DNA from: Candidatus Lambdaproteobacteria bacterium
GTDB lineage: Bacteria; SAR324; JACQKK01
Length of the DNA stretch: 42,300 nt
Direction of reading: 5' to 3'
NCBI GenBank assembly: GCA_016204605.1
Contig: JACQKK010000138.1
Span: forward strand, 1-42,300
Shown: one piece after another, positions 1,855 through 34,251 of the stretch
Numbering within the stretch: position 1 is the first letter of the stretch
Layout: the number at the start of each line of letters is the position of its first letter
Program-made: the position numbers and the translations under genes
Notes under the pieces: model-generated
The model's database searches: none
The model's input: only the letters and a program-made list of their open reading frames with translations
Told to the model about the DNA's origin: nothing

Positions 1855-2820
1855 ATGATCGACAGGCTCGGGACCCTGGTTGGATTCTTCGTCGGTGTGT
1901 TCCTGATCGTCTTCGGCATCACATGGCCGGATCAGCTTTCGAACTACTACGTCTACCGGATCGCCCAGTACGAGCAGGAGGTCAACGATCTGCGCGTGCG
2001 AGGCGCCACGCGGGGCGAGGTGGCCCAGAAGCAGGTGGAGATCCAGCAATTCAAGAGCTCATGGGTGGCGGGCATCACCCGGTTTCTCGACCTGAAATCG
2101 GTGCTGATCGTGCTCGGGGGCTCCTACGCCGCGATCCTGATCGCGTTTCCGTTCCGGCGCGCATTGGCGACGTTCGCCTACATCGGCATGGTGTTCCAGC
2201 GGGAGCGCACCGAGGAGGAATTCGAGACCGTCTACAAGCACCTGATGGAGTTCTCCCAGTACCGGTTCGACAAGGAGATCATCCCCGACGAGAAGGTCGC
2301 CGTGGTGCCGCTTTACTTCCTGCGCGACAGCCTCGAGAACTTCATCCAGGTGGACTGGGTGAGCGAGGAGATGGTGCAGGAGATCGTCTCCTCCGAGATC
2401 GAGAACTACGCGTACCAGGAGGACCAGTCCATCGCCGTGATGGCCTACATGGGCCGGGTCGCCCCGGCCTTCGGCATGCTGGGCACGGTGGTGGGGCTGA
2501 TCCTGCTGATGGGCTCCGCCGGGGAGAACGCCTCGATCGGACAGATCATGGGCGGCATGTCCGTGGCGCTGATCACCACCCTCTACGGCGTGCTGCTGGC
2601 GCAGCTGATCTTCCTGCCGGTGTCGGCCAAGATCACGCGCAAGAAGGAAAGCTACATCCGGCTCTATGAGATGATCCGGGAAGGCATCCTGTATCTGCAC
2701 CGCCGGGAGCGCCCCGACGTGATGCAGCAGGACCTGGAGATTTACCTCTCCAAGAAGCGCAGGCTCAAGATGAGGGATGAACGCAGGGCCGCGCTGGCCC
2801 GGGGCGAATTCAACCTATGA
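1855..2820 (+). CDS. MotA/TolQ/ExbB-type proton-channel (stator) protein
   Basis: 321 residues, inner membrane. Four membrane segments: 5-24, 82-100, 202-219 and 231-256. The last two carry the MotA signatures APAFGMLGTVVGL (203-215) and the VALITTLYGVLLAQLIFLP hairpin (237-255) with the two conserved prolines. The segment FLDLKSVLIVLGGS before helix 2 is also typical MotA. Unlike ordinary MotA, about 50 residues of hydrophilic, probably helical sequence (25-77) separate helix 1 from helix 2. The cytoplasmic loop (101-200) lacks an obvious copy of the R-E-G-x-x-x-L-E segment that carries the two FliG-contacting charges of E. coli MotA. Its stop overlaps the start of the MotB-like gene (ATGA), so a stator complex is expected. 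It heads an operon with a FliG-like gene, arguing against a TolQ or ExbB role. Confidence 0.9.
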   Translation: MIDRLGTLVGFFVGVFLIVFGITWPDQLSNYYVYRIAQYEQEVNDLRVRGATRGEVAQKQVEIQQFKSSWVAGITRFLDLKSVLIVLGGSYAAILIAFPFRRALATFAYIGMVFQRERTEEEFETVYKHLMEFSQYRFDKEIIPDEKVAVVPLYFLRDSLENFIQVDWVSEEMVQEIVSSEIENYAYQEDQSIAVMAYMGRVAPAFGMLGTVVGLILLMGSAGENASIGQIMGGMSVALITTLYGVLLAQLIFLPVSAKITRKKESYIRLYEMIREGILYLHRRERPDVMQQDLEIYLSKKRRLKMRDERRAALARGEFNL

Positions 2821-3473
2821 GCGAACGGAAACGCCGACCCTTCATCAGCGAGGAATCCGGCGAGCAGATGGAGGAATGGGTCGTCACGTTCGCCGACCTG
2901 ATGTCGCTGCTGTTCAGCTTCTTCGTCCTGCTGACCACGCTGTCCACGTCGCCGAAGAACTGTAGCGATATCGCCAGGTACCTGGAGGAGAACCGGCCCT
3001 TGTACAAGGATTTCGAGCTGCGCAACTCGAAGCTGGAATGCGTGATCACGCTGCCCTCGGACTTCCTGTTCCAGACGGGGCAGGATCAGGTGCAGCCGGC
3101 GGCGCTCACGCGCCTGAAGCCCCTGTTCACGACGATCAAGGGCATCAAGGCGCACAAGGACGATCTGCTCGTGGTGGAAGGCCACACGGACGACGTGCCG
3201 ATCAAAACCGCCAAGTTTCCCTCGAACTGGGAGCTATCCTCGGCGCGGGCAACCAACGTGGCCAGCTTCCTGCGCGAGGTGGGCATGAACTCCTCGCAGT
3301 TGTCGATCCGGGCCTATGCCGATCAGCGGCCGCGGGTGGCCTACAAGGACGAGGCTGGCCAGCCGCTCAAGGGACGGGAGCTGCAGCAAGTCCGCCAGCG
3401 CAACCGCCGTGTGGAAATCTATCTGATCGATCAGCCGAAGCGCATCGAGGACTACGGCGTGCTGTTCCGATAG
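2817..3473 (+). CDS. MotB-type stator protein with OmpA-like peptidoglycan-binding domain
   Basis: 218 residues, clearly shorter than enteric MotB (about 300). The N-terminus EEWVVTFADLMSLLFSFFVLL is the MotB proton-channel helix; Asp27 is the equivalent of the essential Asp32 of E. coli MotB. An OmpA C-terminal fold follows (about 74-205) with EGHTDDVP (121-128), NWELSSARA (137-145) and RNRRVEI (195-201), the residues that hold diaminopimelate in peptidoglycan. The linker between helix and OmpA domain is only about 25-30 residues, so the plug/linker region of classic MotB is reduced. The gene overlaps the MotA-like gene by 4 bp, indicating translational coupling. The two proteins should form an ion-driven stator anchored to the cell wall. 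Confidence 0.92.
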   Translation: MSERKRRPFISEESGEQMEEWVVTFADLMSLLFSFFVLLTTLSTSPKNCSDIARYLEENRPLYKDFELRNSKLECVITLPSDFLFQTGQDQVQPAALTRLKPLFTTIKGIKAHKDDLLVVEGHTDDVPIKTAKFPSNWELSSARATNVASFLREVGMNSSQLSIRAYADQRPRVAYKDEAGQPLKGRELQQVRQRNRRVEIYLIDQPKRIEDYGVLFR

Positions 3474-3505
3474 CGATGATGGACTGGACCAGGGAGGGTC
3501 ATTCG

Positions 3506-4648
3506 GTGAAACCGCTCAGGATGGGGTCAAGCTTGCGCCGCCGCATGGGGCAGGCCTTGGGCATTGCCTGCGGCCTGGCGATCTGGGCGGGCGCGGCGCT
3601 GGCCCAGGCGCCCACCGCCCCCGGCGCTCCGCGCCCCGCGGCGCCCGGCGCTGCGCCTGGTGCCGTGCGCCCCACGGTGCCCCCCGCCGGCACGGGTGGC
3701 GCGCAGGCGCGGCAGGAGGGCTTTTCGATCGTCCAGGACGAGCGCCTGTACCAACTGGAGGAGGTGATCTCGCTGATCGCCGGTTCGGTGGGCAAGGTGG
3801 CCGACAAGGTCAAGACGCTCGCCATCAACTCCTTCTATTTCGGCCACGATGTGGATCCCGATTTCCGCCGCAAGGCGGAGATCATCATCATGGATCGCCT
3901 GCTCAACGCCAACCCCAACGTGCGCCTGATCCAGTGCCAGGAATGCCAGCGGCTGGAGACGAAGATCGTCCGCGGCATCCTGCGCCTGCGCAAGGGCATC
4001 CCCAGCGGCGAGACGCGGCGCGAGCTGGCGAAGACGCTGGGGGCGGACGGCTTCATCGATATCGGCCTGTTCCAGAGCGGCGGCCAGATGACGGTCTACC
4101 TCAAGGTGGTCGAAGCCGAATCCGGGGCGATCATCCTGGTGGATGAGCTGGCCGGGCGGGTCGCCTTCAAGCGCCGCGCCCTCACCTTCTCCTTCGGCGA
4201 CATGACCTTCCCGATCAAGGTGGGCACCAAGACCGTGCAGCACAACGCGCTTGTGCTGGGCGTCAGCGAATCGGCCCAGCTCACCGGCCGCTTCTCCTTC
4301 ACCGTGGACCTGGCCGCCTACGCCGACAACAACGAGCTCAACACGAGCAAGTACCTTACTCTCGACGCTGGCCTGGTGCTGAGACCCACGCTCGGTTTCG
4401 ACATCCTCCAGATGCCCAGCAGCACCTCGCGCCTGCTTTTCTACTTGGGGGTCGGCAAGCTCTTGTCGCCCCAGTTGAACTACGCCACGCTGTTCTCGAC
4501 GGGGTTGCAGTACGTGGTCGGCGACCGGCTGGTGGTGCAGTTCGGTGTGAACTCCTTCCCCGACACGAACGTCAAGGTCGCCTCGGGATCGTCGGCAGCC
4601 ACGCTCACAGGAGTCGGCAATGAATTGCGCTTCGGCTACCGGTTCTAA
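3506..4648 (+). CDS. Outer-membrane protein: CsgG/FlgO-like periplasmic part plus C-terminal barrel
   Basis: 380 residues from the GTG start, chosen because AGGGAGGG (3491-3498) sits 7 nt upstream; an in-frame ATG pair at 3476/3479 has no ribosome binding site. Signal peptide 1-33 (ends GAALA-Q), an Ala/Pro-rich linker 34-66, then a mixed alpha/beta region (about 75-235) with LYQLEEVISLIAGSVGKVADKV and a segment where a small protein sums subunits and residues much as in CsgG/FlgO-type lipoprotein folds. Cys144 and Cys147 form a CxxC pair within it. From about 250 the sequence turns into alternating amphipathic strands ending in RFGYRF, with terminal phenylalanine, the signature of an outer-membrane beta-barrel. 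Family assignment of the middle domain is tentative. Position in the operon suggests an outer-membrane collar or anchor for the inner-membrane motor. Confidence 0.7.
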   Translation: MKPLRMGSSLRRRMGQALGIACGLAIWAGAALAQAPTAPGAPRPAAPGAAPGAVRPTVPPAGTGGAQARQEGFSIVQDERLYQLEEVISLIAGSVGKVADKVKTLAINSFYFGHDVDPDFRRKAEIIIMDRLLNANPNVRLIQCQECQRLETKIVRGILRLRKGIPSGETRRELAKTLGADGFIDIGLFQSGGQMTVYLKVVEAESGAIILVDELAGRVAFKRRALTFSFGDMTFPIKVGTKTVQHNALVLGVSESAQLTGRFSFTVDLAAYADNNELNTSKYLTLDAGLVLRPTLGFDILQMPSSTSRLLFYLGVGKLLSPQLNYATLFSTGLQYVVGDRLVVQFGVNSFPDTNVKVASGSSAATLTGVGNELRFGYRF

Positions 4649-5405
4649 GGCTCGGGCCGGTTCGCGGTCTGGGGCCGGTTCGCGGTCGGCGGCCTGGCGT
4701 TCGCTCCGGCCGGCGCCGGGGCTTGCCGCGCTCGCGCTCGCGCTGGCGTTGGGGGCATGCGCGAAGAAGGACGCCGCGAAGGGCCCGGAGACGACCGTGC
4801 TCACCACGCGCAGCGGCGAGACCGGCATCCAGGTCGTCGAAGGCGAGCGGGCCGGCAGCAAGACCGTCAAGGTGACCACCACCTACCGCGGCCAGGAATC
4901 GAACATCGTCATCAACATCGAAGACCCGGTCTACGAGATCGAGATCCCCCTCTCCATCGAGCAGCAGTTGCCCGCGGCGGCGCGAGGAGCCCCCGGAGCG
5001 GCGGGAGCCGGCGGGGGCGCCGGCGACTTCCAGGACCTGCTGATCGCGCAATATGTGGAGAAGGCACAGGAGGCCATGCTCGAGGGCGATTACAACCGCG
5101 CCCTGCGCCAGGTGAACCTGGTGCTGCTGGTCAGGCCCGATCACGTCAAGGCCCACGAGATGAAGGGCTCGATCTATTACGCGATGGGGAACTACCAGCT
5201 CGCCAACGAGGAATGGGAGCAGGTGCTGGCCAGCGATCCCTCGAACCAGGAGGTGCGGTCGTTCCAGGAGTTCCTCAAGAGCCGGGGCGGCGCCCCGCAG
5301 CCGCCGCTGCCGGGCGTGCCCGCCGGCGCGGCCGGCCCAGCGGCTCCCGCCAAGGTGCCGGGCAAAGGCGCCGCGCAGCCTCCCAAGCCGGAGCCGCCGC
5401 GATGA
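4620..5405 (+). CDS. TPR lipoprotein of the motor-like operon
   Basis: 261 residues. A basic N-terminus and hydrophobic stretch end in the lipobox ALGAC, giving lipidated Cys47. A beta-rich segment (55-115) is followed by an Ala/Gly linker and one or two tetratricopeptide motifs (about 140-225) with the sequence GSIYYAMGNYQLANEEW; a Pro-rich tail closes it. The start lies 29 bp inside the upstream gene with CACAGGAG (4606-4613) as ribosome binding site. The same TPR signature recurs in the next two proteins, so the three probably share a partner or stack together in the periplasm. The N-terminal Ser/Arg/Gly-rich residues come from a short direct repeat (GCCGGTTCGCGGTC, twice) near 4656-4690. 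Outer- or inner-leaflet sorting cannot be told; the residue after Cys is Ala, which in enterics favours the outer membrane. Confidence 0.82.
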   Translation: MNCASATGSKARAGSRSGAGSRSAAWRSLRPAPGLAALALALALGACAKKDAAKGPETTVLTTRSGETGIQVVEGERAGSKTVKVTTTYRGQESNIVINIEDPVYEIEIPLSIEQQLPAAARGAPGAAGAGGGAGDFQDLLIAQYVEKAQEAMLEGDYNRALRQVNLVLLVRPDHVKAHEMKGSIYYAMGNYQLANEEWEQVLASDPSNQEVRSFQEFLKSRGGAPQPPLPGVPAGAAGPAAPAKVPGKGAAQPPKPEPPR

Positions 5406-6364
5406 GCCGCCACGCTTCCGACCGGCCTGGTCGCCGCACCGCGGCACGTGGGGCGGCGCCCGTGCTCGCGCTGGCGCTGCTGCTGGCGTGGGCGGTCCTC
5501 CCGGTTTCCGCCCGCGCGCAGACCGAGAACCTGCTGGACCGGATCACCAACGCCAGGATGGTGCAGTTCGAGGAGCGGCTGACGCGGGAGCTGAACGCGG
5601 CGATCTCGCGCTACATCTCCGATAAGCAGTACGTGCTGCGGGTGAACGTGATCTGGAACCGCGACGTGATCCCCGCGGCGCCTGGGCCGGCCCTTTCGCC
5701 CGATCGGCAGAAGCTGCCCGGCTTCCCCATCTTCGTGCGCAGCCCGGACGCGCCGGCGGTGGACGAGACCGTCCCGCCGTTCGTGCGGATGGTGGTGCGG
5801 GTGCTGATGGACGAGACGCTGCCCGAATACTACGAGCTGTTCCTCCGCAAGATCGTGCCTGTCGTGGCCCGCTTCGATGAGAGGCGGGGCGATCAGGTGA
5901 TCGTGCTCAAGGAGACCTTCCCGCCGGCGGCGCGTCAGGAACTGCCGCCCACCCTGCCGGAGAAGGAGCTGATGCAGCAGTTGGGCGGCGCGCCGCAGCC
6001 CCCTCCGGCGGCCGCCCCCCCGCTGCCGGGCGCAGCGCCCGCGGCGCCGTTCGCGCCGGAACCGCCGCCCCGCGCGGCCGCAGCCGCGCCGCGCATGTCG
6101 GAAATGCAGGCGGCCCAGATCGCCTTCGACGAGCAGCGCTACACCGACGCGCTGCGGATCGTGCAGCAGGGCTTTCAGCGGGCGGAAACCAACCGCAGCC
6201 GGGGCGAGTTCCTGGCCATGGAGGGCTCCGTCTATTTCACGATGAAGAACCTGAGCGCGGCGCGGGAATCGTGGAAGCGCGCCCTCGTGTTCGATCCGAC
6301 CAATCTCGATGTGCATCGGGCGTTGACCCTGGTGGAAACCCAACCGAGCAAGGTGGCGCCATGA
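5402..6364 (+). CDS. Secreted FliF RBM3-like ring domain plus TPR protein
   Basis: 320 residues. Signal peptide 1-39 (VSARA-Q). Residues about 45-173 read like the third ring-building motif of the flagellar MS-ring protein FliF: an N-terminal helix (FEERLTRELNAAISRYI), a strand (VLRVNVIWN), the family-specific LPGF motif (105-108), then a strand-helix-strand ending FDERRGDQVIVLKETF (158-173), which parallels the FliF GFxxxRGDxxxVVN ending. A Pro/Ala-rich linker (185-230) leads to a TPR (235-310) with GSVYFTMKNLSAARESW. There is no second membrane helix, so the protein is periplasmic. ATGA overlap with the preceding gene. Homology to FliF is my reading of the motif pattern, not a database result. 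Confidence 0.75.
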   Translation: MSRHASDRPGRRTAARGAAPVLALALLLAWAVLPVSARAQTENLLDRITNARMVQFEERLTRELNAAISRYISDKQYVLRVNVIWNRDVIPAAPGPALSPDRQKLPGFPIFVRSPDAPAVDETVPPFVRMVVRVLMDETLPEYYELFLRKIVPVVARFDERRGDQVIVLKETFPPAARQELPPTLPEKELMQQLGGAPQPPPAAAPPLPGAAPAAPFAPEPPPRAAAAAPRMSEMQAAQIAFDEQRYTDALRIVQQGFQRAETNRSRGEFLAMEGSVYFTMKNLSAARESWKRALVFDPTNLDVHRALTLVETQPSKVAP

Positions 6365-7242
6365 ACCGAGCCCCCGCATCGCAGCCCGCTCCCGGCGCCC
6401 GCCGGCGCTGGGGCCCCCTGCTCGCCCTGCTGCTGCCGCTGCTCGCGGCGCCGGCGGGCGCGGCCGAATTCGCCACGCCCCCCGGCCAGAACGTGGCCCT
6501 GCAGGAGGATCTGCTGCGCGAGAACGTCACCAAGCTGGCGCGCGATCTGGTGGGTGAACGGCTGCTCGATGTCAACGTCCACATCGGCTACGTGCGCACC
6601 GAAGCGCGCAGCCAGGCGGCGGGGCCCGAGCGCATCAAGCTGCCCGGCTTCAACAGCTTCATCGATGTCGGCACCCAGGGCCAGCCCCAGGTGGTGCCCG
6701 ATTTCGCCCGCGTCCGTCAGATCACGGTGATCATGCGCGCCGATCCCGAGCTCAAGCCCGACGCGATCGAGCGCGAGCTGCAATCCCAGGGCAAATTCTT
6801 CCAGGAGAAGGGCGACTGGCTCCAGGTGGTGGCCGTGGCCCCGCTGGCGGAGAAACCCGAAGCGGGCGCTGCGGCGAAGGGGGCGCGGCCGGCCGAGACC
6901 GGCGAAGGCAAGCCCAAGCCCCCCGCGGAGCCGCCGGCGGTCATGGCCAGGCGACCCCCGCCGCTCTCGCCCGAAGAAGCCTTGCGCGAGCCGCGGAGCA
7001 CCATGAACCTGATCCAGGCCCGCGATTCGTACTTCAAGGGGGATTTTCCGCGTGCGTTGGACCAGATTCTGCAAGCCATCCGGGAGCAGCCCGAAAATGC
7101 CCAGGCCTATGCCATGCTCGGCTCGATCTACTACACGATGAACTGGCAGAGCCTGGCGCTCAAGTATTGGGAGAAATCGCTGGCGTTGGATCCCGACAAC
7201 CGGGAAATCGCGCAACTGGTCGCCCAGCTTCACGATCGCTAG
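6361..7242 (+). CDS. Second secreted RBM3-like ring domain plus TPR protein
   Basis: 293 residues. Signal peptide 1-34 (PAGA-A). The ring-like domain (45-162) has the same order as in the gene before: a helical start, a strand (LLDVNVHIGYVR), the LPGF motif (94-97), and a strand-helix-strand ending EKGDWLQVVAVAP (149-161). A Lys/Pro/Ala linker (163-205) connects to a TPR (212-290) containing GSIYYTMNWQSLALKYW. It overlaps the preceding gene by ATGA, and 68 bases separate it from the FliG-like gene. Being a divergent paralogue of its neighbours, it is more likely to co-assemble in a heteromeric ring or stack than to be redundant. Confidence 0.75.
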   Translation: MNRAPASQPAPGARRRWGPLLALLLPLLAAPAGAAEFATPPGQNVALQEDLLRENVTKLARDLVGERLLDVNVHIGYVRTEARSQAAGPERIKLPGFNSFIDVGTQGQPQVVPDFARVRQITVIMRADPELKPDAIERELQSQGKFFQEKGDWLQVVAVAPLAEKPEAGAAAKGARPAETGEGKPKPPAEPPAVMARRPPPLSPEEALREPRSTMNLIQARDSYFKGDFPRALDQILQAIREQPENAQAYAMLGSIYYTMNWQSLALKYWEKSLALDPDNREIAQLVAQLHDR

Positions 7243-7310
7243 CCCATCCGCACCGGCGGATGGCCTTGGGGGCGGCCGACCGTCATGTCATCGGAGACCC
7301 AGGCGCAACC

Positions 7311-9155
7311 ATGGATGTGCTGAAACGGCGGATCGCGTTCCCCATCGCGCTGCTCGCGCTCGCGGCCTGCCTGGCCGGCACCCCGGCCGAGGCCCAGCAG
7401 CAGGGCGGGGCCCAACTGGTGGATTCCGCGGAGGTCTACCAGCGCCGCATCGAGGCGTTGGTGGCCGAGCGGCTTTCGGCCCTGTTCCCCAGCCAGAGCT
7501 TCGTGCTGCGCGCCTTCGTGGTGGGCGAGCGCACCCGCGTCCCCGTGGTGGCCGCCGCGCCGGGGGTGTTCGAGCTGCCGGGCTTCCGGCGCACCCAGGG
7601 CGAGCAGCCCCGCAGCGAGGAGAAGTTCCGGGTCGATCAGGTGGTCGTGCGGGTGGTGCTGCACGAGGACGTGGCCCCGGCCGATCTCCAGTACATCCGC
7701 ACCGTGGTGCCGCTGCTCGCCGACTTCAGGGCGGAGCGCGGCGACCGGCTCGACGTGCAGGTGGTGGCGCCCAAGCCGCCTCCGGCCCCCCCTGCCGCCG
7801 GGGTCGCGCCCGAAGCGGCCAAGGCCGAGGCCGCCGCGCCCGAGGCGGCTCAGCCGGAGGCCAAGGAGCCGGCCGTCAAACCGGGCGAAGGGATGGCCAA
7901 GCCCCCCGTGCCCCCCGAGCCGCAGGGCTTCACCGTGCGCGACTGGATCGTGCTGGGGCTGCTGGGGCTGATGCTGCTGGTGCTGCTGATCGTGCTGCTG
8001 CGGGTGTTCCTGATGCGGCTCCAGCCGGCGCAGCCGGCGGTCGCGCCGCCGCTGCCCGCCCTGGCCCATCCGCCGCCCCCCGTGCGGCGGCCCGAGGACG
8101 AGAAGCGGGAGCAGGAGCTGGCACAGGCCCGGGAGCAGCAGGAACGGATCGACAGCCTGCGCGCCACGGTGGTCAAGGGCCTGTTCGCCCGCAGCGATAT
8201 CGGGCGCCAGCTCGTCGTGGCGTGGCAGAGCGAAGGCGACAAGCTGGCCGCGCTGATCCACTGCCTGGGCCCCACCGTCGCCCGGCAGGCCCTGCTGCCC
8301 CACCTGGACCGGGAACGCTACCGGAGCCTGGAAGAGCAGGTGGCCCAGGAGGAACGGCCCTCGAACGCCGACCTGATCGAGGTGCTGCGCGAGGCGAACC
8401 TGTTCCTGCTGGCCAGGGAGATCACCGAACCGGAGCGCTTCTCCGAGGATCCGTTCCCGTTCCTCCGTGAGCTGAGCCGGGGCCAGATCGCGCACCTCAT
8501 CAAGGAGGAGCCGGTGCGGGTCAAGGCGATCGTGCTCAGCCGCATCGATCCCGACGATACGGCCGCCATCATGGATCAGATGCCCAGGGAGCTCCAGTTG
8601 GAGGTGGCCGTCCAGATCGGCAACCTCCAGTCGCTGCCGCTCGACATGCTCTCCGACGTGGCCAAGGCCCTGGCCGACAAGTCGCGCCACCTCCCCGACG
8701 CCAAGTCGGTGGATATCGAAGGGCCCAGGGCGCTCGTGGACGTGATGGGCCGCGCCGCCCCGGAGACCAGCCGCTACCTGCTGCAAGCCATGAAGACCAA
8801 GGACCGGCGCCTCTCGGAGGTCGTCGAAAAACGATTCTTCATGTTCGAGTTCATCCCCGAGGTGGCGGAGGAGCTGTTGCCGCAGGCCGTGCGGGCGGTC
8901 GCCAGCACCACCGTCATTCAGGCGCTCCAGGGCGCCGAGCCCGAGCTGCAGCGCAAGGTGATCCTGGCCTTCCCCGAGCAGGCGCGCACGGGGCTGGTGA
9001 CTTCGTTGCGCTCCGCGAAGTACGATCGGCAGACGATCCTGGAAGCCCGGCGCCAGGTGGTCGCCCGCTTCCAGCAACTGGCCGAGCAGGGCAAGATCGA
9101 CCTCAAGCAGATCAGCGATGCCTGGCAGGCGCAGCAAACGAAGGCCGCTTCCTGA
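7311..9155 (+). CDS. RBM3-like ring domain, membrane helix and FliG-like rotor domains in one protein
   Basis: 614 residues. Order: signal peptide (1-28); FliF RBM3-like ring domain (39-153) with LPGF (89-92) and the ending AERGDRLDVQVVAP; Ala/Pro/Glu linker (154-207); one membrane helix (211-233); cytoplasmic coiled-coil (about 260-285); then the three FliG regions: FliG_N-like (310-362, KLAALIHCLGPTVARQALLPHL), FliG_M-like (393-455, EEPVRVKAIVLSRIDPDDTA) and FliG_C-like (470-600, RFFMFEF ... ALQGAEPELQRKV). In a flagellum FliF and FliG are separate and the FliG torque helix carries Lys264, Arg281, Asp288 and Asp289 (E. coli). By ungapped alignment here these are Gln540, Gln557, Thr564 and Ser565, and EHPQ reads EEPV. 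It would place a rotor-like domain under a periplasmic ring, next to the MotA-like channel. The start ATG has only a weak ribosome binding site. Confidence 0.85.
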   Translation: MDVLKRRIAFPIALLALAACLAGTPAEAQQQGGAQLVDSAEVYQRRIEALVAERLSALFPSQSFVLRAFVVGERTRVPVVAAAPGVFELPGFRRTQGEQPRSEEKFRVDQVVVRVVLHEDVAPADLQYIRTVVPLLADFRAERGDRLDVQVVAPKPPPAPPAAGVAPEAAKAEAAAPEAAQPEAKEPAVKPGEGMAKPPVPPEPQGFTVRDWIVLGLLGLMLLVLLIVLLRVFLMRLQPAQPAVAPPLPALAHPPPPVRRPEDEKREQELAQAREQQERIDSLRATVVKGLFARSDIGRQLVVAWQSEGDKLAALIHCLGPTVARQALLPHLDRERYRSLEEQVAQEERPSNADLIEVLREANLFLLAREITEPERFSEDPFPFLRELSRGQIAHLIKEEPVRVKAIVLSRIDPDDTAAIMDQMPRELQLEVAVQIGNLQSLPLDMLSDVAKALADKSRHLPDAKSVDIEGPRALVDVMGRAAPETSRYLLQAMKTKDRRLSEVVEKRFFMFEFIPEVAEELLPQAVRAVASTTVIQALQGAEPELQRKVILAFPEQARTGLVTSLRSAKYDRQTILEARRQVVARFQQLAEQGKIDLKQISDAWQAQQTKAAS

Positions 9156-10353
9156 CCCGGCGCGCGTTTCCCTCGCCCTGCTTGCGCTGGGGACGCTGGC
9201 CTGCGTCCTGGTCGCCACCGCCCTGCCGAGTCCCGCGGCGGCGAAGAGCCTGCGCCGCTCGGCGCCCTTCATCCGCGCCCTGCTGATGAGCGATGCCTAC
9301 ACCGCCGTGGCCGACGAGGCCTCGGCGGTGCAGTACAACCCGGCGGGCATCGCGGGGCTGGCGGATGGCTCGCTCGAAGCGTTCGTGCCCGCGTTCTACT
9401 TCGACGACAAGATCAAGACGGCGATCCTGGAGCCCGAAAAGCTCCAGGCGCGCTACCAGAACCTCACCGATGCCGACTTCGAGAAGCTGCTCGGCGAGCA
9501 CATCTTCGCGCAGATCAACATCCGCATGCCGGTGGTCACCCTGGCCGGCCCCCACCTGGCGATCGGCCTGATCGCCGACGCGTTCAGCTTCGTCGAGATT
9601 CTCCAGAACCCCGTGCTGCCCGGGCTGCACATCGAGTTCTACGCGGACGAGGTGCTGTTCTTCGCCAAGGCCTGGAACCTGACCGAGAGCCTCGCCTTCG
9701 GCATCACCCCCAAGGTCATCAACCGGATCGGCCTGGACAAGACGTTCACCTTTGCCGAGCTGTTCGCCAGCGGGGGCACGCTGGACCTGGAGAGCCAGCC
9801 CGCCTTCCAGCAGCTCCTGGCGGGCACGTCCTACCAGGCCGGCGCGCTGGACGTGGGCTTCCTCTACCGCTTCCCCTTCCTCGAAGGCTGGCAGCCCCGG
9901 ATGGGCATCGCCCTGCTGAACATCGGCGGCTACAGCGCCAAGGATGGGTTGCGCGGCATGAAGTTCGGCAAGCGCCCCAGCGGGTTCGAGCCGCCCATCG
10001 CCGGCGAGATCCCCCAGATCAACACGGTCGGCTTCGCCGTCTCGCCCGCCTGGGCGGGCGTGCGGGTCACCCTGGCGCTGGATGTGGTGGATGTCACCCG
10101 CAGCGCCACCCCCGGCAGCGACTGGATCAAGCGCACCCGGCTCGGCCTCGCCGCGGAGGTCTTCCCCCACGAGGACGGCACCGCGCTGTTCTCGCTGCTG
10201 GCGGGGCTGGCCGGCACCCGCCCCAGCTACGGCGTGATGTCGCGCGTGTTCGTGTTCGAGATCGGCTTCGGCCTCTACGATGTCGAGCTCGGCAACGCCG
10301 ATGGCGACCGGGTCGACCACCGCACCGCCTTCACCTTCGGCTTCCGCTTCTGA
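9118..10353 (+). CDS. PorV/FadL-like outer-membrane beta-barrel protein
   Basis: 411 residues. A basic N-terminus and hydrophobic segment (18-42, ending PAAA-K) form the signal peptide. The segment SDAYTAVADEASAVQYNPAG (58-77) is the hallmark of PorV/PorQ and FadL-like barrels, in which a small hatch precedes the strands. The remainder alternates short amphipathic strands with loops and ends FTFGFRF with terminal phenylalanine, as needed for barrel insertion. The start codon lies 38 bp inside the FliG-like gene, so it belongs to the operon. PorV-type proteins act as surface anchors or shuttles in type IX secretion and gliding systems, and related barrels occur in the Myxococcus Glt machinery; a comparable outer-membrane terminus of the motor is plausible but unproven. 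Confidence 0.8.
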   Translation: MPGRRSKRRPLPDPARVSLALLALGTLACVLVATALPSPAAAKSLRRSAPFIRALLMSDAYTAVADEASAVQYNPAGIAGLADGSLEAFVPAFYFDDKIKTAILEPEKLQARYQNLTDADFEKLLGEHIFAQINIRMPVVTLAGPHLAIGLIADAFSFVEILQNPVLPGLHIEFYADEVLFFAKAWNLTESLAFGITPKVINRIGLDKTFTFAELFASGGTLDLESQPAFQQLLAGTSYQAGALDVGFLYRFPFLEGWQPRMGIALLNIGGYSAKDGLRGMKFGKRPSGFEPPIAGEIPQINTVGFAVSPAWAGVRVTLALDVVDVTRSATPGSDWIKRTRLGLAAEVFPHEDGTALFSLLAGLAGTRPSYGVMSRVFVFEIGFGLYDVELGNADGDRVDHRTAFTFGFRF

Positions 10354-10683: not shown

Positions 10684-10752
10684 GGGTAGGAGGAATTTTT
10701 TGCGACCATACACGCCCACGCGGCGTTGCGCTGCTCAAAAGGAGTCCGCGCC

Positions 10753-13700
10753 ATGTCCCGATCGATCAAGCCACGCAGAAACAGTGCCGGTTTGTGGAGC
10801 CTCGCGCTCGGGCTGAGCGTGGTGGTGGCGATGGCGGCCTGCGGTACGGGCAGCAAGAAGTCGGAACCCGCGCCCATCACGCCGCTCAACACCGTCGCGG
10901 CGCGATCGGCCACCCTGCCCGTCGGCGATGCGACCTGTCCCTACGGCGGCATCTCGGTGCAGACCGGCGTGGACCGGAACGGCGACGGGACCCTCCAGGA
11001 TTCCGAGGTGCAGCAGACCCAGAAGGTCTGCAATGGGGCGCCCTCGCTCATCAAGACCACCGCCAGCGCGGCGGATGGCGGGGCGACCGACGGCGTGAAC
11101 GGCTGCCTCTACGGCGGCTGGAAGATCGAAACGGGTCTCGACGACGGCGCGGGCGGCGGCATCGCCGGCGACGGCCTCCTGCAGGCCGGCGAGGTCACCG
11201 GCACCAGCTACGCCTGCGCCGGCGCGCCCGGCAGCACGGGAGCAGCCGGCGTGCCCGGTGCAACCGCGCTGATCAAGACCACCGCCATCTCGGCAGATGG
11301 CGGGGCGACCGACGGCGTGAACGGCTGCCTCTACGGCGGCTGGAAGATCGAAACGGGTCTCGACAACGGCGCCGGCGGCGGCATCGCCGGCGACGGCATC
11401 CTGCAGGCCGGCGAGGTCACCGGCACCAGCTACGTATGCGCCGGCGCGCCCGGCAGCACGGGAGCAGCCGGCGTGAATGCGCTGGCGAAGTTCACGGCGG
11501 AGCCGGCGGGAACGAACTGTGCCACGGGCGGCGTCAAGATCGAGATCGGGCTCGACGACGGCACCCCCGGCGGCACGGCCGGCAACGGGGTGCTGGAGAC
11601 CGGCGAGGTCGATCAGACCAGCTATGTCTGCAACATCGGCACGGGCTCCTCCGACGGGGCGGCGGCCTCGCCGGTCACGCTGGCCGTCAATGCCGCCAAC
11701 TCCGCCGGAGTGGCGGCCTTCGGCGCGAGCCACTACCGCTTCACGACCCTTGGCGCGACCTCGTACAGGATTACGCTCTCGGACACCGCGTCCGACCTGA
11801 AGTGGACGCTATACGGCGACGCGGGGTTCTCGGCGGTCGTCGCGACGTGCGACGGGGGGACCAGCGGCGACGAGTCGTGCACGACGCCCCTCCTCACCAG
11901 CGGGGCGATCTACTACCTGAAGGTCGAGGAGAAGAGCAACATCCCCAACCTGTTCCGGCTGCGTATCGCGGAGCCTTTCCTGCTTCTGGCCGCTGACAGC
12001 GCGACGGGCGATCTGGTGCGGCTCGACCCGCTCACCGGCGAGTCGACCACGTTCCTCAACACGTTCGTCGACTGTGAGGGCCCCTGCGATATCGGCCCGG
12101 TCAGCGGCATGGTATACGACCAGGCCAGCGGCAAGCTCATCGCCGGCATGGGCGGCCAAGCGACTTGCTATGGCTGCATCTTGTCGATCGACCCTGCGAC
12201 GGGCGAGGCCACGACCCTGATCGACCGTGCGGATTTCGAGGGCACGGCGAATGCGGTGCCCGGCCTGGCGATGCGCGCGGACGGCACCATCTTCGCGGCG
12301 GTGAAACGCGGCGCCTGGTCCACGACCTTCTTCAGGTTCACGTCCGCCGCACCCACACCGACGCTGCTGGCCATGATGGATTCGACCGTGAATGGCGGCG
12401 GCAACGGACTCGGGTTCGACGAGGCCGGCACGCTCTGGCTGAGCAACGAGTTCGGCCTGTTCCGCGTCGATCCCGCGACGGGAGCGGCCACGTTCACCGG
12501 CAAGCTGCGCTCCGTGGGATTCAGCGGCAGCGGCGGCGGCGGCGGTGTCATCGATTTGGCGCTGATCGCGGACAGCAGGGCCTTCGCGTCGCTCGCGTCG
12601 AACCCGGGCGATGGCCGCATGTATGGGACTTCCAGCTGGGTCTGCTGCGATACGCACCTGGCCACGCTGGATCCGGCGAACCGCTTCGCCTATGACCAGG
12701 CTGCGCTCGCGGTGGATGCGGACGGGCTCGGGTTCGTCCCGCTGCGGGTGTTCCGCCCGCTGCTCACGCCCAAGGGTGCCGTGGCGTACAACCTCGGCTC
12801 GGGTCGCGTGGCGGTCACCTGGAGCCCCGTGCCGCTGGCCACCGGCTACAACGTGTATTGGTCACCCTCACCCGGCGTGACGCCGCAGACCGGCACCAAC
12901 CTCGGCCCCGTCACAGGAACCTCGGTCGTCCATGACGGTCTGGCCGATGGAGTCACGTACTATTATGTCGTCACGGCCATCGTGGCGGGCTTGGGCGAAT
13001 CCGCTCCCTCGCCCGAGGCGACGGTTACGGTCGGCCCGGTCACGGATGCCTTGCTCGCGGCGGACCGCAACGGCGATATCTACCAGCTCGACCCCGTCAC
13101 GGGGAGCCCGACGCTGGTGCGCGACACCTTCAAAAGCGATGGGCTCGGCGGGTTCACCAGCCTGGGGAACCTGAGCTCGATGGTCTACCACCCGCAGACC
13201 GGCAAGCTGTTCGCCGGATCGGCGGCGCAGTCGACCACGACGCCGGGCAGCATCTTCACGGTGAACCTGGCCACGGGCGAGGCGACGTTCCTGGCCGACA
13301 ACTCCAGTATCGACTATGGCGTGGCCGACATGGCCGTCCGCCCTGATGGCACCATCTATGCGTTCTACGAGGCGGGTCAGAACCTGACCACGGTGGACCC
13401 CACCACCGGGGTGGCGACCTGGCTCGGCTATGCCAACGGGATCGGCTGCTGCGGCAACGGGCTCACCTTCGATGGCGCCGGCACGACGCTCTACCTGGCC
13501 GACGACATAGGGCTGCACGTGCTCGACCAGGCGACGGGGGCGGTGCTCTCGAGCACGCCCATCACCTACACCGGGTTCCCGACGCTGACGGCCCCCCGCA
13601 TCAGCTCGATGAGCACCCGGCTCAGCAGCGGGGTGGTGTACGGCATCCTCAACGACGGCAGCGGCGGCACGGGGCCGCGCTACCTGGTGACGGTCAACCT

Positions 13701-14484
13701 CGCCACCGGGGACGTGGTGAACCTCGGCGAAATCGGCCTGCCGCTCGACGGGCTGGCCTGGGTGCAGGAGGCCACCACGCTCGGCGACACGGGCACCATC
13801 ACGGGGACGGTGGTGGATTCGGGGACCACCCTGCCGCTTGCCGGCGTGACCGTGAGCGGCACGGGGGGGCTGGTCCCCGTGATCACCGATGAGACGGGCG
13901 CCTTCCAGTTCACCGGGGTCACGCCCGGCATGCACACGCTGACGTTCACGTTGGCCGGTTACACCAGCGCCAACGTCACGACGATCGTCGCGGCCGGCCT
14001 GCCGACGGCGCTGGGCAACGTGCCCCTGTCTCCGCCGCTTCCGTCCATCACGTACAATTTCGACGATGGCACTCTTGGAGGGGCCACGGTCACGGGAACC
14101 TGGGGGGTGACGACTTCGACGTCCCACTCCGCATCGTATTCCGTGACGGATTCGCCGGGAGGCCTCTACACCAATTCCGCGGATTCCTCCCTCACGCTGC
14201 CGGCCGTCGATCTTTCCGCCTCGACGGCGCCGAGCTTGTCATTCTGGCAGAGCTACGAGATGGAATCCGGTTACGATAACGCCCGCCTGGAAGTTTCAAC
14301 GGACGGCGGAGCGATATTCACCCAGATCCAATCTTGGACCGGGACGAACCTCGCCTGGACGCAGCAGACGTTCGACCTGACGCCGTACAAGTCCGCGCAA
14401 ACCGTGATCCGGTTCCGATTTACAACGGACGGCAGTGTGGTCTATGACGGCTGGTACCTCGATGACATCGTGATCACGCCGTAG
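10753..14484 (+). CDS. Large multidomain surface lipoprotein
   Basis: 1243 residues. Signal peptide with lipobox AMAAC, lipidated Cys30. Then Gly/Asp-rich repeats of the type found in bacterial DUF7151-like modules (about 48-296), each with a G-D-G-x-L-Q-x-x-E-V segment and paired cysteines; two units are almost identical in DNA. A beta-rich domain (300-395) is followed by two propeller-like blocks of D-P-x-T-G repeats (about 400-670 and 765-1010) separated by a fibronectin type III domain (673-760). A carboxypeptidase-regulatory-like beta-sandwich (1015-1090, GTITGTVVDSGTTLPLAGV) and a C-terminal jelly-roll of the choice-of-anchor J/MAM-like kind (1098-1243, ending GWYLDDIVITP) complete it. 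Start: AAAAGGAG 9 nt upstream of the ATG. Adhesion or carbohydrate binding is a guess; no catalytic motif is visible. A hairpin follows the stop. Confidence 0.85.
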   Translation: MSRSIKPRRNSAGLWSLALGLSVVVAMAACGTGSKKSEPAPITPLNTVAARSATLPVGDATCPYGGISVQTGVDRNGDGTLQDSEVQQTQKVCNGAPSLIKTTASAADGGATDGVNGCLYGGWKIETGLDDGAGGGIAGDGLLQAGEVTGTSYACAGAPGSTGAAGVPGATALIKTTAISADGGATDGVNGCLYGGWKIETGLDNGAGGGIAGDGILQAGEVTGTSYVCAGAPGSTGAAGVNALAKFTAEPAGTNCATGGVKIEIGLDDGTPGGTAGNGVLETGEVDQTSYVCNIGTGSSDGAAASPVTLAVNAANSAGVAAFGASHYRFTTLGATSYRITLSDTASDLKWTLYGDAGFSAVVATCDGGTSGDESCTTPLLTSGAIYYLKVEEKSNIPNLFRLRIAEPFLLLAADSATGDLVRLDPLTGESTTFLNTFVDCEGPCDIGPVSGMVYDQASGKLIAGMGGQATCYGCILSIDPATGEATTLIDRADFEGTANAVPGLAMRADGTIFAAVKRGAWSTTFFRFTSAAPTPTLLAMMDSTVNGGGNGLGFDEAGTLWLSNEFGLFRVDPATGAATFTGKLRSVGFSGSGGGGGVIDLALIADSRAFASLASNPGDGRMYGTSSWVCCDTHLATLDPANRFAYDQAALAVDADGLGFVPLRVFRPLLTPKGAVAYNLGSGRVAVTWSPVPLATGYNVYWSPSPGVTPQTGTNLGPVTGTSVVHDGLADGVTYYYVVTAIVAGLGESAPSPEATVTVGPVTDALLAADRNGDIYQLDPVTGSPTLVRDTFKSDGLGGFTSLGNLSSMVYHPQTGKLFAGSAAQSTTTPGSIFTVNLATGEATFLADNSSIDYGVADMAVRPDGTIYAFYEAGQNLTTVDPTTGVATWLGYANGIGCCGNGLTFDGAGTTLYLADDIGLHVLDQATGAVLSSTPITYTGFPTLTAPRISSMSTRLSSGVVYGILNDGSGGTGPRYLVTVNLATGDVVNLGEIGLPLDGLAWVQEATTLGDTGTITGTVVDSGTTLPLAGVTVSGTGGLVPVITDETGAFQFTGVTPGMHTLTFTLAGYTSANVTTIVAAGLPTALGNVPLSPPLPSITYNFDDGTLGGATVTGTWGVTTSTSHSASYSVTDSPGGLYTNSADSSLTLPAVDLSASTAPSLSFWQSYEMESGYDNARLEVSTDGGAIFTQIQSWTGTNLAWTQQTFDLTPYKSAQTVIRFRFTTDGSVVYDGWYLDDIVITP
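11047..11481 (+). repeat. Two near-identical tandem coding repeats (222 and 213 bp)
   Basis: Unit 1 (11047-11268) and unit 2 (11269-11481) share almost every base over about 200 positions, for example GCGGGGCGACCGACGGCGTG in both. A degenerate third unit follows (11482-11640) and an older one precedes. They encode repeat modules of the lipoprotein (residues 99-172 and 173-243). The near-identity points to a recent duplication, and copy number could vary between strains. Confidence 0.85.
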
Positions 14485-17573: not shown

Positions 17574-19592
17574 ATGTCTCATGAAGTCCACGCAGCGCTG
17601 ACGGCCATTCGCAATCGCCTCGACCATTTCGTCGTGGGCCACGGCCAGGTCAAGGAGGCCCTGCTGCTGGCCCTGATCGGCCGGGAGCACTTCTACCTGC
17701 AGGGCGAGCCGGGCTGCGCCAAGACGCTGCTCGCGGAGGTGGCCGGCCACGCCGCAGGGCTCGCGTTCGAGTTCTGCCAGTTCCACCGCGATACGCGCCT
17801 CAACGACCTGCTCGGCGACGTGGTGCTGCGCCGCAGCCGGCAGGCCGATGGCGGGGAGATCATCGAGCAGACGCTGCGCCACGGCGGCTTGCTGCGCGCC
17901 CAGATCGCGGTGCTCGACGACATCACCCGCGCGCCCGGCGAGGCGCTCAACGTGCTGCTGCGGCTGCTCAACGAGCGCGAGTACCTTTCGCAGCGCATCC
18001 CGCTGATGTCGGCCATCGCCACCACCAACCCCACCGGCGACGAGTACTACAACGAGCCGCTGGACCCCGCCAACCTGGACCGCTTCACCCTCCAGTTCAA
18101 GGCCAAGGGGGCGCTGGGCGGCAGCGACTTCGAGCTGGCGCGCAGCATCATGGATCGCTACGACGGCTTCCAGCCGAACATGGAAGAAGGCGAACAGGTG
18201 AGCGCGGAGCTGCTCGAGCGGGCGTACCAGGCCCACCGCCAGGTGAAGCTGCCGCGGTATGTGCTGCGGGCCTACCTCAAGTTCGTGCACGACCTGGTGC
18301 ACAAATATGGCTGCACGCCGGCCAACTCGCTGCTCACCGACCGCACTATGCTGGTCAAGGCGCCGCGCATGATCAAGGCCATGGCGCTGCTGCAGGGGCG
18401 CACCAGCGCCACCCCCGACGACCTGCGCGTGCTCAAGTACATCCTCACCTTCCGCATTCCCGAGGAGCTCTACGAGCAGCTCGATGAGCTGCTGGAGCAG
18501 TTGATCGAGGAGGCGGAGCAGGCCGATGCGGGCGAGCAGGATTCGGCCGAAAGCGAGCAGATGGAGGGCATCCGCGGCCAGGAGGAGGGCGAATCGGAGG
18601 GCGACGAGCAGCAGCAGCAGGATGCCGGCGACAGCGCGCTGGCCGATGAGATCCTCGAATCCGTCCAGTCGCAGCAGGGCGACGCGGAGAACCTGCACTC
18701 CATCCAGCAGCAGGCGCAGGGCGGCGACGACAATCAGTCGAAGTTCCAGCGCAACCAGATGCAGCCGGTGACGAACATCGAGCTGCTGATGAACAAGATC
18801 AAGGGGCGGCTCGAGGAGAACCCGGCCGAGTCGGAGCAGCACCCCGGCGGCTCGCCGCGCACCTACAAGCGCATGAAGACCTTCGAGGAGTTCCTCGATT
18901 CGGACCCCGTCGAGACCTCGATCTGGCTGGAGCGCACCCACCCCACGCTGCCCCGCGCCTTCCGGCGAGAGAAGAAGCACCTGGGCGGCAAGGTGGTCAT
19001 CATCCGCGACGTGAGCCAGTCGATGGAGGGCCGCTATGCCCGCTGGACCTCCTCGGTGGTGACGCGGCTCGTCGATATGGTGCGCAAGAAGCGCATGCGC
19101 ATCGGCTATATCGAGTTCAACCACGTCTCGCACAAGTACCACCACGACGGTCGGTTCTTCACGCGCGACTACGACAAGATCGTCGAGATCGCCACCAACG
19201 TCTCGTGCTCGGGGGTGACCAACTACCAGTTCCCCCTGCGCGATGCGCTGGACGAGCTGCGCGCCGGGGCGACCCACAACAAGCACATCGTGTTCCTCAC
19301 CGATGGCGAACCCACCCAGGGCGATTGGCTGGTGCGGGAGGAGCGCCGCATGGCGCGCGTCTCTGGGGTCTCCATCCACACGCTGTTCATCGGCACCAGC
19401 GAATGCCCGGAAATCCTCGATATCCTCTCGGAGGAGAGCGATGGCTTCCGGTTCCTGGCGATCCCCGATGACAAGGGCGGCCTGAACCTGCAGGAGCGCA
19501 CGCCGCGCACCCCGGTCGGGCCGCAGCCGATCAGCACCCTGGGTCCCGAACCGCTCAAGGGGTCCGGCACTCGCGCCCGCTCCCGGCGCTGA
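17574..19592 (+). CDS. MoxR-type AAA ATPase fused to a VWA domain
   Basis: 672 residues. N-terminal MoxR AAA+ module: Walker A GEPGCAKT (44-51), Walker B VLDD (113-116), then ATTNPTGDEYYNEPLDPANLDRF with sensor 1. A very acidic, Gln-rich linker (about 315-410) joins it to a C-terminal von Willebrand factor A domain whose MIDAS metal site is complete: DVSQS (479-483), SGVTNY and LTDGEPTQGD. Usually MoxR and its VWA partner are separate proteins; here they are one chain. MoxR-VWA systems act as chaperones inserting metals or maturing large complexes. A CGGAGGA ribosome binding site precedes the ATG. The next gene is a second, stand-alone MoxR, so the two ATPases may form a mixed hexamer. Confidence 0.92.
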   Translation: MSHEVHAALTAIRNRLDHFVVGHGQVKEALLLALIGREHFYLQGEPGCAKTLLAEVAGHAAGLAFEFCQFHRDTRLNDLLGDVVLRRSRQADGGEIIEQTLRHGGLLRAQIAVLDDITRAPGEALNVLLRLLNEREYLSQRIPLMSAIATTNPTGDEYYNEPLDPANLDRFTLQFKAKGALGGSDFELARSIMDRYDGFQPNMEEGEQVSAELLERAYQAHRQVKLPRYVLRAYLKFVHDLVHKYGCTPANSLLTDRTMLVKAPRMIKAMALLQGRTSATPDDLRVLKYILTFRIPEELYEQLDELLEQLIEEAEQADAGEQDSAESEQMEGIRGQEEGESEGDEQQQQDAGDSALADEILESVQSQQGDAENLHSIQQQAQGGDDNQSKFQRNQMQPVTNIELLMNKIKGRLEENPAESEQHPGGSPRTYKRMKTFEEFLDSDPVETSIWLERTHPTLPRAFRREKKHLGGKVVIIRDVSQSMEGRYARWTSSVVTRLVDMVRKKRMRIGYIEFNHVSHKYHHDGRFFTRDYDKIVEIATNVSCSGVTNYQFPLRDALDELRAGATHNKHIVFLTDGEPTQGDWLVREERRMARVSGVSIHTLFIGTSECPEILDILSEESDGFRFLAIPDDKGGLNLQERTPRTPVGPQPISTLGPEPLKGSGTRARSRR

Positions 19593-19633
19593 GCGGCAGG
19601 CGGGCATCCCACCCCCACGCCGCGGGAGCGAGC

Positions 19634-20656
19634 ATGGCCACGCGATCACGAGCCACCTCAGCCAAACGAGGAAGGAGAACACCGTTGGAAGGCAACACGG
19701 AAATTCAGACGATCGCCCGGCGCTTCGGCGGACTGCGGCGCGAGATGGACCGGTTCGTGATCGGCCACGACGAGGTCAAGGCGGGATTGATCCTCGGGCT
19801 GCTGGCCCGGGAGCACATCTACATCGAGGGGCCGCCCGGCATGGCCAAGACCATGCTCTCCGAGATCGTCTCGGCCGCCTCGAACCTCAAGTTCTACTTC
19901 TACCAGTTCCACCGCGACACGCGCCTGGCGGAGCTGGTGGGAGATATCGTCATCCAGCGCGAGCAGGAGGCGGGGGCGGGCGAGCTGATCCGGCAGTCGA
20001 TCCGCCGGGGCGGGGTGCTCACGGCCGAGCTGTGCGTGCTCGACGACATCTCGCGGGCGCCCGGCGAGGCGCTCAACGTGCTGCTGCGCATCCTCAACGA
20101 GCGCGAGTTCCTCGACGAACCGATCCCGCTCCTGACGGCGATCGCCACCAGCAATCCCACCCTGGACGAGTACTACAACGAGCCGCTGGACCCGGCGAAC
20201 CTGGACCGCTTCACCATCCAGCTCCGCTCCCACGGTCTGATCCAGGAGAACCAGTGGGACAACGTGCAGAAGGTGATCGATCTCTACGCGGCCAGCACGT
20301 TCAGCGAGGAGGTGCAGCCCGACCCGATCCTGAACCGGGAGGTGTTCGACCGCGGCTACGAGCTGCTGCGCCAGGTGGAGGTGCCCGAGACCATCAAGCG
20401 GGCGCTGATCGACCTGCTCTCGCGGTTCGTGAACCAGTTCAAGCTCGATCCGAGCAACTCGCTCATCACGGATCGCAGCTTCCTCGTCAAGGCGATCAAG
20501 ATCTTCAAGGCCAACGCGCTGCTCCATGGGCGGAGCCAGGTGAGCCCGGAGGATCTGAGCGTGCTGCGGTTCCTCACCACGTTCCGGGTGCCGGACGAGA
20601 TCGACCGCAACATGCCCACGCTGATCGCCGAATCGATCCAGCGCGTGGCGGAGTGA
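19634..20656 (+). CDS. MoxR-family AAA ATPase
   Basis: 340 residues. Walker A GPPGMAKT (66-73), Walker B VLDDISRAPGEALN, sensor segment ATSNPTLDEYYNEPLDPANLDRF. It is a close paralogue of the ATPase half of the upstream fusion protein (QFHRDTRL, RAPGEALNVLLR and EPLDPANLDRFT are shared) but has no VWA domain. The gap to that gene is 41 bases, so they are co-transcribed. Two starts are possible: the ATG used here (GGGAG upstream) or a TTG at 19685 with a stronger AGGAAGGAGA, which would remove 17 basic residues. Confidence 0.9.
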   Translation: MATRSRATSAKRGRRTPLEGNTEIQTIARRFGGLRREMDRFVIGHDEVKAGLILGLLAREHIYIEGPPGMAKTMLSEIVSAASNLKFYFYQFHRDTRLAELVGDIVIQREQEAGAGELIRQSIRRGGVLTAELCVLDDISRAPGEALNVLLRILNEREFLDEPIPLLTAIATSNPTLDEYYNEPLDPANLDRFTIQLRSHGLIQENQWDNVQKVIDLYAASTFSEEVQPDPILNREVFDRGYELLRQVEVPETIKRALIDLLSRFVNQFKLDPSNSLITDRSFLVKAIKIFKANALLHGRSQVSPEDLSVLRFLTTFRVPDEIDRNMPTLIAESIQRVAE

Positions 20657-34145: not shown

Positions 34146-34251
34146 GCCGGCGCGGCTCAGAGCACCCGACCCCGCCCGAGCCGCCACCGGGGAGCGACCC
34201 GTTCCCCGGCGCCCGGGCCTCCCGCTTACGACGCACCAGAGGTCACTCCGT

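Follow-up and report, generated by a model that had tools for sequence, protein, structure and literature searches.

A conserved operon in the SAR324 phylum predicted to encode a flagellar-type stator and a ring protein joined to FliG

The window analysed here is a stretch of 42,300 nucleotides from a Candidatus Lambdaproteobacteria bacterium of the SAR324 phylum (assembly GCA_016204605.1, 3.84 Mb, 80 % complete), and makes up the entire contig JACQKK010000138.1. It contains an operon of eight genes, here called A to H, on the + strand at 1855–10353, which is real and is conserved in related genomes. The products include a putative stator pair of the MotA/MotB type and a protein, G, in which a ring domain like that of FliF is predicted to be joined to FliG through the membrane. 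Judging from these parts, the operon probably encodes an ion-driven rotary machine that is separate from the flagellum, has no export gate, and would pass torque to the outer membrane. The eight genes are as follows.

1855..2820, + strand: A, MotA-type stator subunit, 321 residues (PF01618, 85.7 bits, over cut-off).
2817..3473, + strand: B, MotB-type subunit with plug and OmpA peptidoglycan-binding domain, 218 residues (PF13677, 44.9 bits, and PF00691, 54.4 bits, over cut-off).
3476..4648, + strand: C, predicted outer-membrane barrel with an N-terminal periplasmic domain, 390 residues from the first ATG.
4620..5405, + strand: D, TPR lipoprotein, 261 residues (TPR_2, 30.5 bits, over cut-off; orthologues kept in order).
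5402..6364, + strand: E, secreted protein with a likely RBM3-type ring domain and a TPR-like end, 320 residues (similar by profile to the RBM3 part of G).
6361..7242, + strand: F, secreted protein with a likely RBM3-type ring domain and TPR, 293 residues (TPR_2, 30.9 bits, over cut-off).
7311..9155, + strand: G, predicted signal peptide, RBM3 domain (residues ~38–155), membrane helix (209–234), coiled coil (261–293), and FliG N, M and C domains (~306–598).
9118..10353, + strand: H, likely outer-membrane barrel of the PorV/FadL type, 411 residues (PorV_fam NF033709, E 2.4e-4, under cut-off).

The boundaries given for these eight coupled genes in an initial annotation, made from the sequence alone, are exact. 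All eight start with ATG and have a GC content at third codon positions of 0.87–0.95. The junctions overlap by 4, 29, 4, 4, and 38 bases or leave a gap of 2 bases, save for a gap of 68 bases between F and G. For C, alternative start codons are present at 3479, 3521, and 3545. Upstream of A is a divergent citrate synthase gene.

The evidence for a rotor comes from G. Three Pfam families pass their cut-offs in this protein, FliG_M (PF14841, 52.6 bits), FliG_C (PF01706, 49.3 bits), and FliG_N (29.4 bits), and FliG_M and FliG_C pass in the one G protein scanned from each of three families of the phylum (f1, which includes the window, f2, and f3). By sequence, G matches the solved FliG structure 3hjl (E 7e-16), and it scores 78.2 bits against the NCBIfam fliG equivalog, for which the cut-off is 226.7. 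Both RBM3 and FliG folds are seen in its predicted model and in fold comparison with Foldseek, where the SpoIIIAG ring 5wc3 is also listed (E 0.096). There is no match in G to PF01514, which represents RBM1/RBM2; within the whole genome this family matches a single protein, the canonical FliF encoded on another contig. G is therefore predicted to be a FliF-like RBM3 ring domain joined to FliG through the membrane, and the FliG-like region proposed in the initial annotation is upheld. An MgtE-type transporter was considered in place of FliG and rejected, as MgtE_N reaches 15.5 bits in G, under cut-off and far below FliG_M and FliG_C.

The stator pair is likewise borne out. The best NCBIfam match of A is MotP (132.6 bits, under the cut-off of 394), its nearest families being MotP, MotA, and PomA. 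A TolQ/ExbB-type subunit is not indicated, with 30.2 bits against the TolQ family and a cut-off of 221. A matches solved MotA and PomA chains with E down to 3e-27, offset by 42–50 residues that, by reading, lie between the first two membrane helices. In a tree of A with MotA of Escherichia coli, two other MotAs, the ExbB-like C150 of the same genome, and two TolQ proteins, A groups with the MotAs, and a branch with support 97/93 separates the two TolQ proteins and C150; the long branches make any finer placement of A unsafe. P222 is kept in all seven A proteins and in the MotAs, and is absent from the three rows on the TolQ side, whereas P173 and T209 are present in all 16 rows of the alignment and are hence undiagnostic. 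MotA R90 is kept in A, and E98 is replaced by D (7 out of 7 for both). For B, the nearest NCBIfam types are MotD and MotB, below the equivalog cut-offs, and a TFADLM motif can be read in the sequence. Flagellar stators are described as one clade apart from generic ion transporters (PMC12505986), and A and B can be identified on sequence grounds as a putative stator of the flagellar MotA/MotB type. By homology only, A may form a pentamer around a dimer of B and rotate in the 5 : 2 manner of MotAB.

The initial annotation assigned RBM3-like ring domains to three proteins. This holds for G by its fold; in E and F the RBM3 fold is probable, less firmly than in G. E aligns with the RBM3 part of G at 97.9 % and with F at 99.3 % (hhalign), and F with the RBM3 part of G at 92.5 %. 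PF08345 (YscJ_FliF_C) matches five out of ten E proteins under its cut-off, and it is this Pfam scan of relatives, together with the fold match, that carries the RBM3 assignment. The TPR_2 match in E is also under cut-off (21.9 bits). D is a TPR lipoprotein, with a lipobox read as LGAC. C has an LpoB/TolB-like domain, and no solved structure was found to be related to H by sequence.

In the machine proposed here, G would be a one-protein rotor, in place of the FliF plus FliG of the flagellum. Its RBM3 domains are predicted to assemble into a periplasmic ring, fringed on the cytoplasmic side by the FliG parts. RBM1/RBM2, which would hold an export gate, are not detectable in G, and a gene for FliM was not found in the locus. 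The A–B stator would be anchored to peptidoglycan via the OmpA domain of B, and ion flow through it would turn or push the G ring. E and F, with RBM3 and TPR, may be stacked on this ring as a periplasmic shaft or collar, and D and C (plus H in f1) may couple the device to the outer membrane. The layout across inner membrane, periplasm, and outer membrane suggested in the initial annotation stands in this form, as a prediction. As to cargo, surface movement or adhesion, work similar to gliding, is tentatively put forward as the leading candidate, at well short of an even chance.

The initial annotation also described the operon as being without a flagellum. This is true of the locus, not of the cell, because flagellar genes are present on other contigs of the genome: canonical FliG, FliF, FliM (PF02154), and FlhA (PF00771), and flagellin N-domains (PF00669) in six places. 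There are also four further MotA/ExbB genes in the genome. PF02154, PF00771, and PF00669 have no match on the window contig (FliN, rod, and hook families lay outside this genome-wide search), nor do FliP, FliQ, and the other flagellar references match in the window. With flagellar genes for FliG, FliF, FliM, FlhA, and flagellin elsewhere in the genome, the operon would be an additional device; no report of A to H as known accessory parts of a flagellum was found. G is not a recent copy of the genome's own FliG, which is ruled out by a tree in which all 13 G proteins lie on one side of a branch and the 24 canonical FliGs on the other (support 100/100); its deep branches are long, leaving the date of the split unsettled. 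Flagellar motility genes are likewise described for every genome in a SAR324 survey from 2022, whose text mentions neither MotA nor FliG nor gliding (PMC9031357). In genome G000, canonical fliG (contig C73, 68354–69367) lies apart from fliF-fliH-fliI (contig C43), and on contig C76 (7068–12285) a MotA/MotB pair precedes by a few genes a second FliM-domain protein (38.6 bits, cut-off 27), the main FliM being on C124.

Comparisons across genomes show that the gene set is shared and that its order is conserved. G is found at E < 1e-100 in 27 out of 52 genomes of the SAR324 phylum (7 in f1, 17 in f2, and 3 in f3), bearing in mind that in draft genomes a gene may be missed. Of six named contigs that encode G, five are labelled SAR324 cluster or Candidatus Lambdaproteobacteria and one Deltaproteobacteria. 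No G was found among 151 genomes sampled from a single other phylum. Neighbourhoods were read for 24 of the 27 genomes, leaving out G019, G025, and G034; L018–L023 are apparently the same contigs as L054–L058 plus L026 and were counted once. In f1, A to H are complete in three out of seven loci, including the window, and the other four are in order up to the contig end; an orthologue of H is present in all seven. In f3, A to G are found in all three loci, with no H. In f2, the order C-E-F-G is found in 11 out of 14 loci, the other three being cut at contig ends, and in one of the f2 loci (L063) A-B follows C-E-F-G. In an otherwise conserved C-E-F-G locus (L074), the G of genome G031 is split by stop codons, representing either a pseudogene or an assembly error.

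The A gene of f2 usually lies elsewhere. Orthologues of A with at least 60 % identity, one of them partial, were found in 12 out of 15 f2 genomes searched, and in 11 of the 13 of these that have G. For the 12 f2 genomes with G and no A alongside it, such an orthologue (again one partial) is present elsewhere in 10. B adjoins A in all five of the separate f2 A loci that were read; four belong to genomes that have G, and the fifth to G010.

Genomes of f2 also contain a second, diverged protein of this kind, G2 (543–565 residues), in which a periplasmic part like F and a membrane helix are combined with a weak FliG region. In all three loci read, G2 adjoins its own MotA and a MotB of 522–523 residues. 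FliG_M is over cut-off in one of three G2 proteins (26.0 bits) and under it in two (20.9 and 19.4 bits), and MgtE_N, under its own cut-off, scores similarly to FliG_M. A profile of f1 G alone finds G2 at 1e-9 to 3e-12; the stronger scores come from a profile that itself contains G2. Ten of the genomes matched by G2 were also searched for A; eight have a second A gene, A2, always on the G2 contig, and A2 was not found in G026 and G033. A ring-FliG-like protein with a MotA/MotB pair beside it is thus present in two paralogous modules. With somewhat less than even probability, the flagellar rotor family has a second branch here, in the form of a rotary motor with no propeller, in which FliF and FliG would be merged and RBM3/TPR rings would serve as a shaft to the outer membrane, run by SAR324 in one or two paralogous versions beside an ordinary flagellum.

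In the three G2 loci (L078, L079, and L080, ~6–12 kb), the next gene after G2-MotA-MotB, the MotB with an extra middle part, may encode an outer-membrane protein, and a FecR-like protein (by reading) also follows in L078 and L080. Another membrane-anchored FliG protein, P0047 (447 residues), differs from G in architecture, with an N-terminal membrane helix (by reading), FliG_M, FliG_C (92.6 bits), and then TPR repeats. In two f3 genomes, proteins of ~600 residues are encoded near genes of the pst/phoU type (L076, 7360–9153; L077, 6641–8461), that of L077 having FliG_C at 21.5 bits, just under the cut-off of 23.3.

A number of results weigh against a separate rotary machine. The Pfam FliG_N match in G sits on the FliG_M stretch, therefore the FliG_N domain is assigned solely from the fold comparison. 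The predicted model of G has a pTM of 0.38, making the arrangement of its domains unreliable. In E and F, the RBM3 matches are sub-threshold or indirect: PF08345 matches neither E of the window nor the E proteins of three other f1 loci, and a FliF profile built from three sequences gives weak comparisons (G 52 %, E 25 %, F 0.7 %). The gene set is also uneven, with no H detected in the 17 f2 and f3 loci, no A orthologue found in G016 and G030, though both have G, and A-B together with G2 but no G in G010.

Other results concern the flagellum. FlhA is present in 51 out of 52 genomes of the phylum, including all 27 with G, and because every G genome also has FlhA, independence from the flagellum is not proven by this distribution. 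In f2, fliQ, with fliP where the stretch reaches, lies ~5–6 kb beyond C of C-E-F-G in six of the ten loci extending 5 kb in that direction (6 out of 14 of all f2 loci), the genes in between being non-flagellar by reading, and flagellin is one or two genes away from A-B in four out of five loci. This f2 context is the strongest result against independence. It is consistent with a lineage-specific flagellar accessory, in which G, E, F, C, and D would be extra rings, a collar, or a stator cage and A-B a second stator set. TPR proteins occur in flagellar cages of Campylobacter and spirochetes, and matches to FlcA here are sub-threshold. Against an accessory role, FlhA is present in all 18 genomes that are at least 90 % complete, of which 7 have G and 11 do not, so the flagellar gene is kept where G is absent. 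In addition, 23 flagellar references find no match in the three f3 loci or in six of the seven f1 loci, the window included; the seventh has a sole match to FliF, 28 % over 102 residues. In two flagellar loci used as positive controls, the same search gave 11 matches each. Nor would an accessory need a membrane-anchored FliG of its own, and EHPQ, K264, and D289 of FliG are lost from all 13 G proteins. An accessory is considered unlikely, and it is the proximity of fliQ and flagellin in f2 that keeps its probability appreciable.

The loss of these residues also bears on how G would be driven. The EHPQR motif of FliG binds FliM. It is described as belonging to the FliG middle domain (PMC6290876); MotA R90 and E98 are reported to contact FliG D289 and R281 (PMC7564593). 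For comparison, 24 canonical FliGs (22 from the same phylum, that of E. coli, and one from another phylum) were aligned with 13 G proteins, using E. coli numbering. EHPQ, K264, D or E at position 288, D289, and a basic residue at position 297 are each found in all 24 canonical proteins and in none of the 13 G proteins, only the E of EHPQ remaining in G. At position 281, 22 of the canonical proteins have R and two have K, and of the G proteins seven have Q, five K, and one R. Instead, all 13 G proteins have F278, P279, E280, and R283, as read from the alignment. The structural alignment, which ends by pairing 598 with 323, agrees with this residue register.

The charges that contact the stator are thus mostly lost from G, a further point against a rotor of the flagellar kind, and this could also mean that G is not driven in the flagellar way. 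In a rival reading, the operon would encode an ion-driven energiser of outer-membrane work, non-rotary or of short stroke, similar to Tol-Pal, Ton, or type IX systems, with G as a fixed scaffold ring and A-B acting on periplasmic proteins. The LpoB/TolB-like domain of C, the weak PorV likeness of H, and the TPR matches in D, E, and F (that of E under cut-off) agree with this. However, A lies on the MotA side of the 97/93 branch and keeps P222 in seven out of seven proteins. Nor would a cytoplasmic FliG_C be required in a scaffold, and both FliG_M and FliG_C are over cut-off in the one G protein scanned from each of the three families. Such an energiser is considered improbable. A decaying relic of a second flagellar system is far less probable still. 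It would account for the broken G frame in G031 and for the locus having none of the export, rod, hook, and filament genes that were sought there. Set against it are intact G frames and conserved order in three families and new residues that are invariant in 13 out of 13 G proteins, and we know of no complete flagellum with a fusion architecture of the G type. A decayed flagellum is rejected on account of the conserved frames, order, and new motifs.

A rotary machine separate from the flagellum, the interpretation preferred here, can be compared with known systems. Like the flagellar motor, it has FliG M and C domains, an RBM3-type domain, and a membrane-anchored ring protein beside a MotA/MotB pair with plug and OmpA domain. 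Unlike it, RBM3 and FliG are in one protein, EHPQ and most torque charges are lost, no RBM1/RBM2, FliM, export gate, or filament genes were found in the locus, and there are periplasmic and outer-membrane proteins of its own. The device would work like a flagellar motor up to the shaft, and fails several of the defining features of a flagellum that were tested.

The gene set is undescribed as far as the literature search reached, in agreement with the initial annotation, and the closest system found is the chlamydial FliF-FliG fusion, in which a FliF-like periplasmic part is joined to FliG across the membrane, as in G (PMC4768692). The SpoIIIAG-like (RBM3) domain is reported to be missing from that fusion, as is part of its SctJ-like region, so that G, with RBM3 and no SctJ-like match, is its reverse; the available portion of that paper mentions no paired stator operon (PMC4768692). 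The initial annotation noted a general likeness to the Agl-Glt gliding machinery and a difference in the rotor domains. In Myxococcus, a stator like MotA/MotB is linked to proteins of the periplasm and the outer membrane (PMC9389320), and the likeness lies there. The difference is supported: no Glt family is above cut-off in A to H, GltJ being the only one listed (13.6 bits, cut-off 450). To our knowledge, the Agl-Glt system has neither FliG nor RBM3. The GldLM/type IX motor with its PorV shuttle is similarly ion-driven and acts on the outer membrane, and H is weakly PorV-like; the stator here is of the MotAB type, and no GldL/GldM (Gld/Spr) family is among the NCBIfam matches listed for A to H (for B, the best 25 of 37). 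The sporulation ring of SpoIIIAG, like G, has an RBM3-type ring domain outside flagella; we know of neither FliG nor a stator in it.

Rings of FliG and FliF are familiar from the flagellum, whereas for stators and export gates relatives in other systems are well known. The locus is a concrete candidate for a rotor with its stator, in about half of the genomes of the phylum, with no export, rod, or filament genes in the locus, and makes the existence of a rotor without a propeller testable. It also offers a natural experiment on the FliG-MotA interface, where the folds are the same and the charges differ, and hints at an envelope machine, so far unseen, in an uncultured lineage that is widespread. 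A survey has reported rotor proteins in species without filament genes and suggested another function for them (PMC12199754).

Other features of the window were noted. The next long frame 3′ of the operon (10726–14484) encodes a large protein with DUF7151 repeats and carboxypeptidase-regulatory and MAM-like domains. A possible tandem hydrolase pair was discounted, as no Pfam family matches its second frame. Two MoxR-type ATPases adjoin at 17574–20656, of which the first also carries a von Willebrand A domain as a fusion, and two similar short-chain dehydrogenases adjoin at 33225–35157, likely as a tandem copy.

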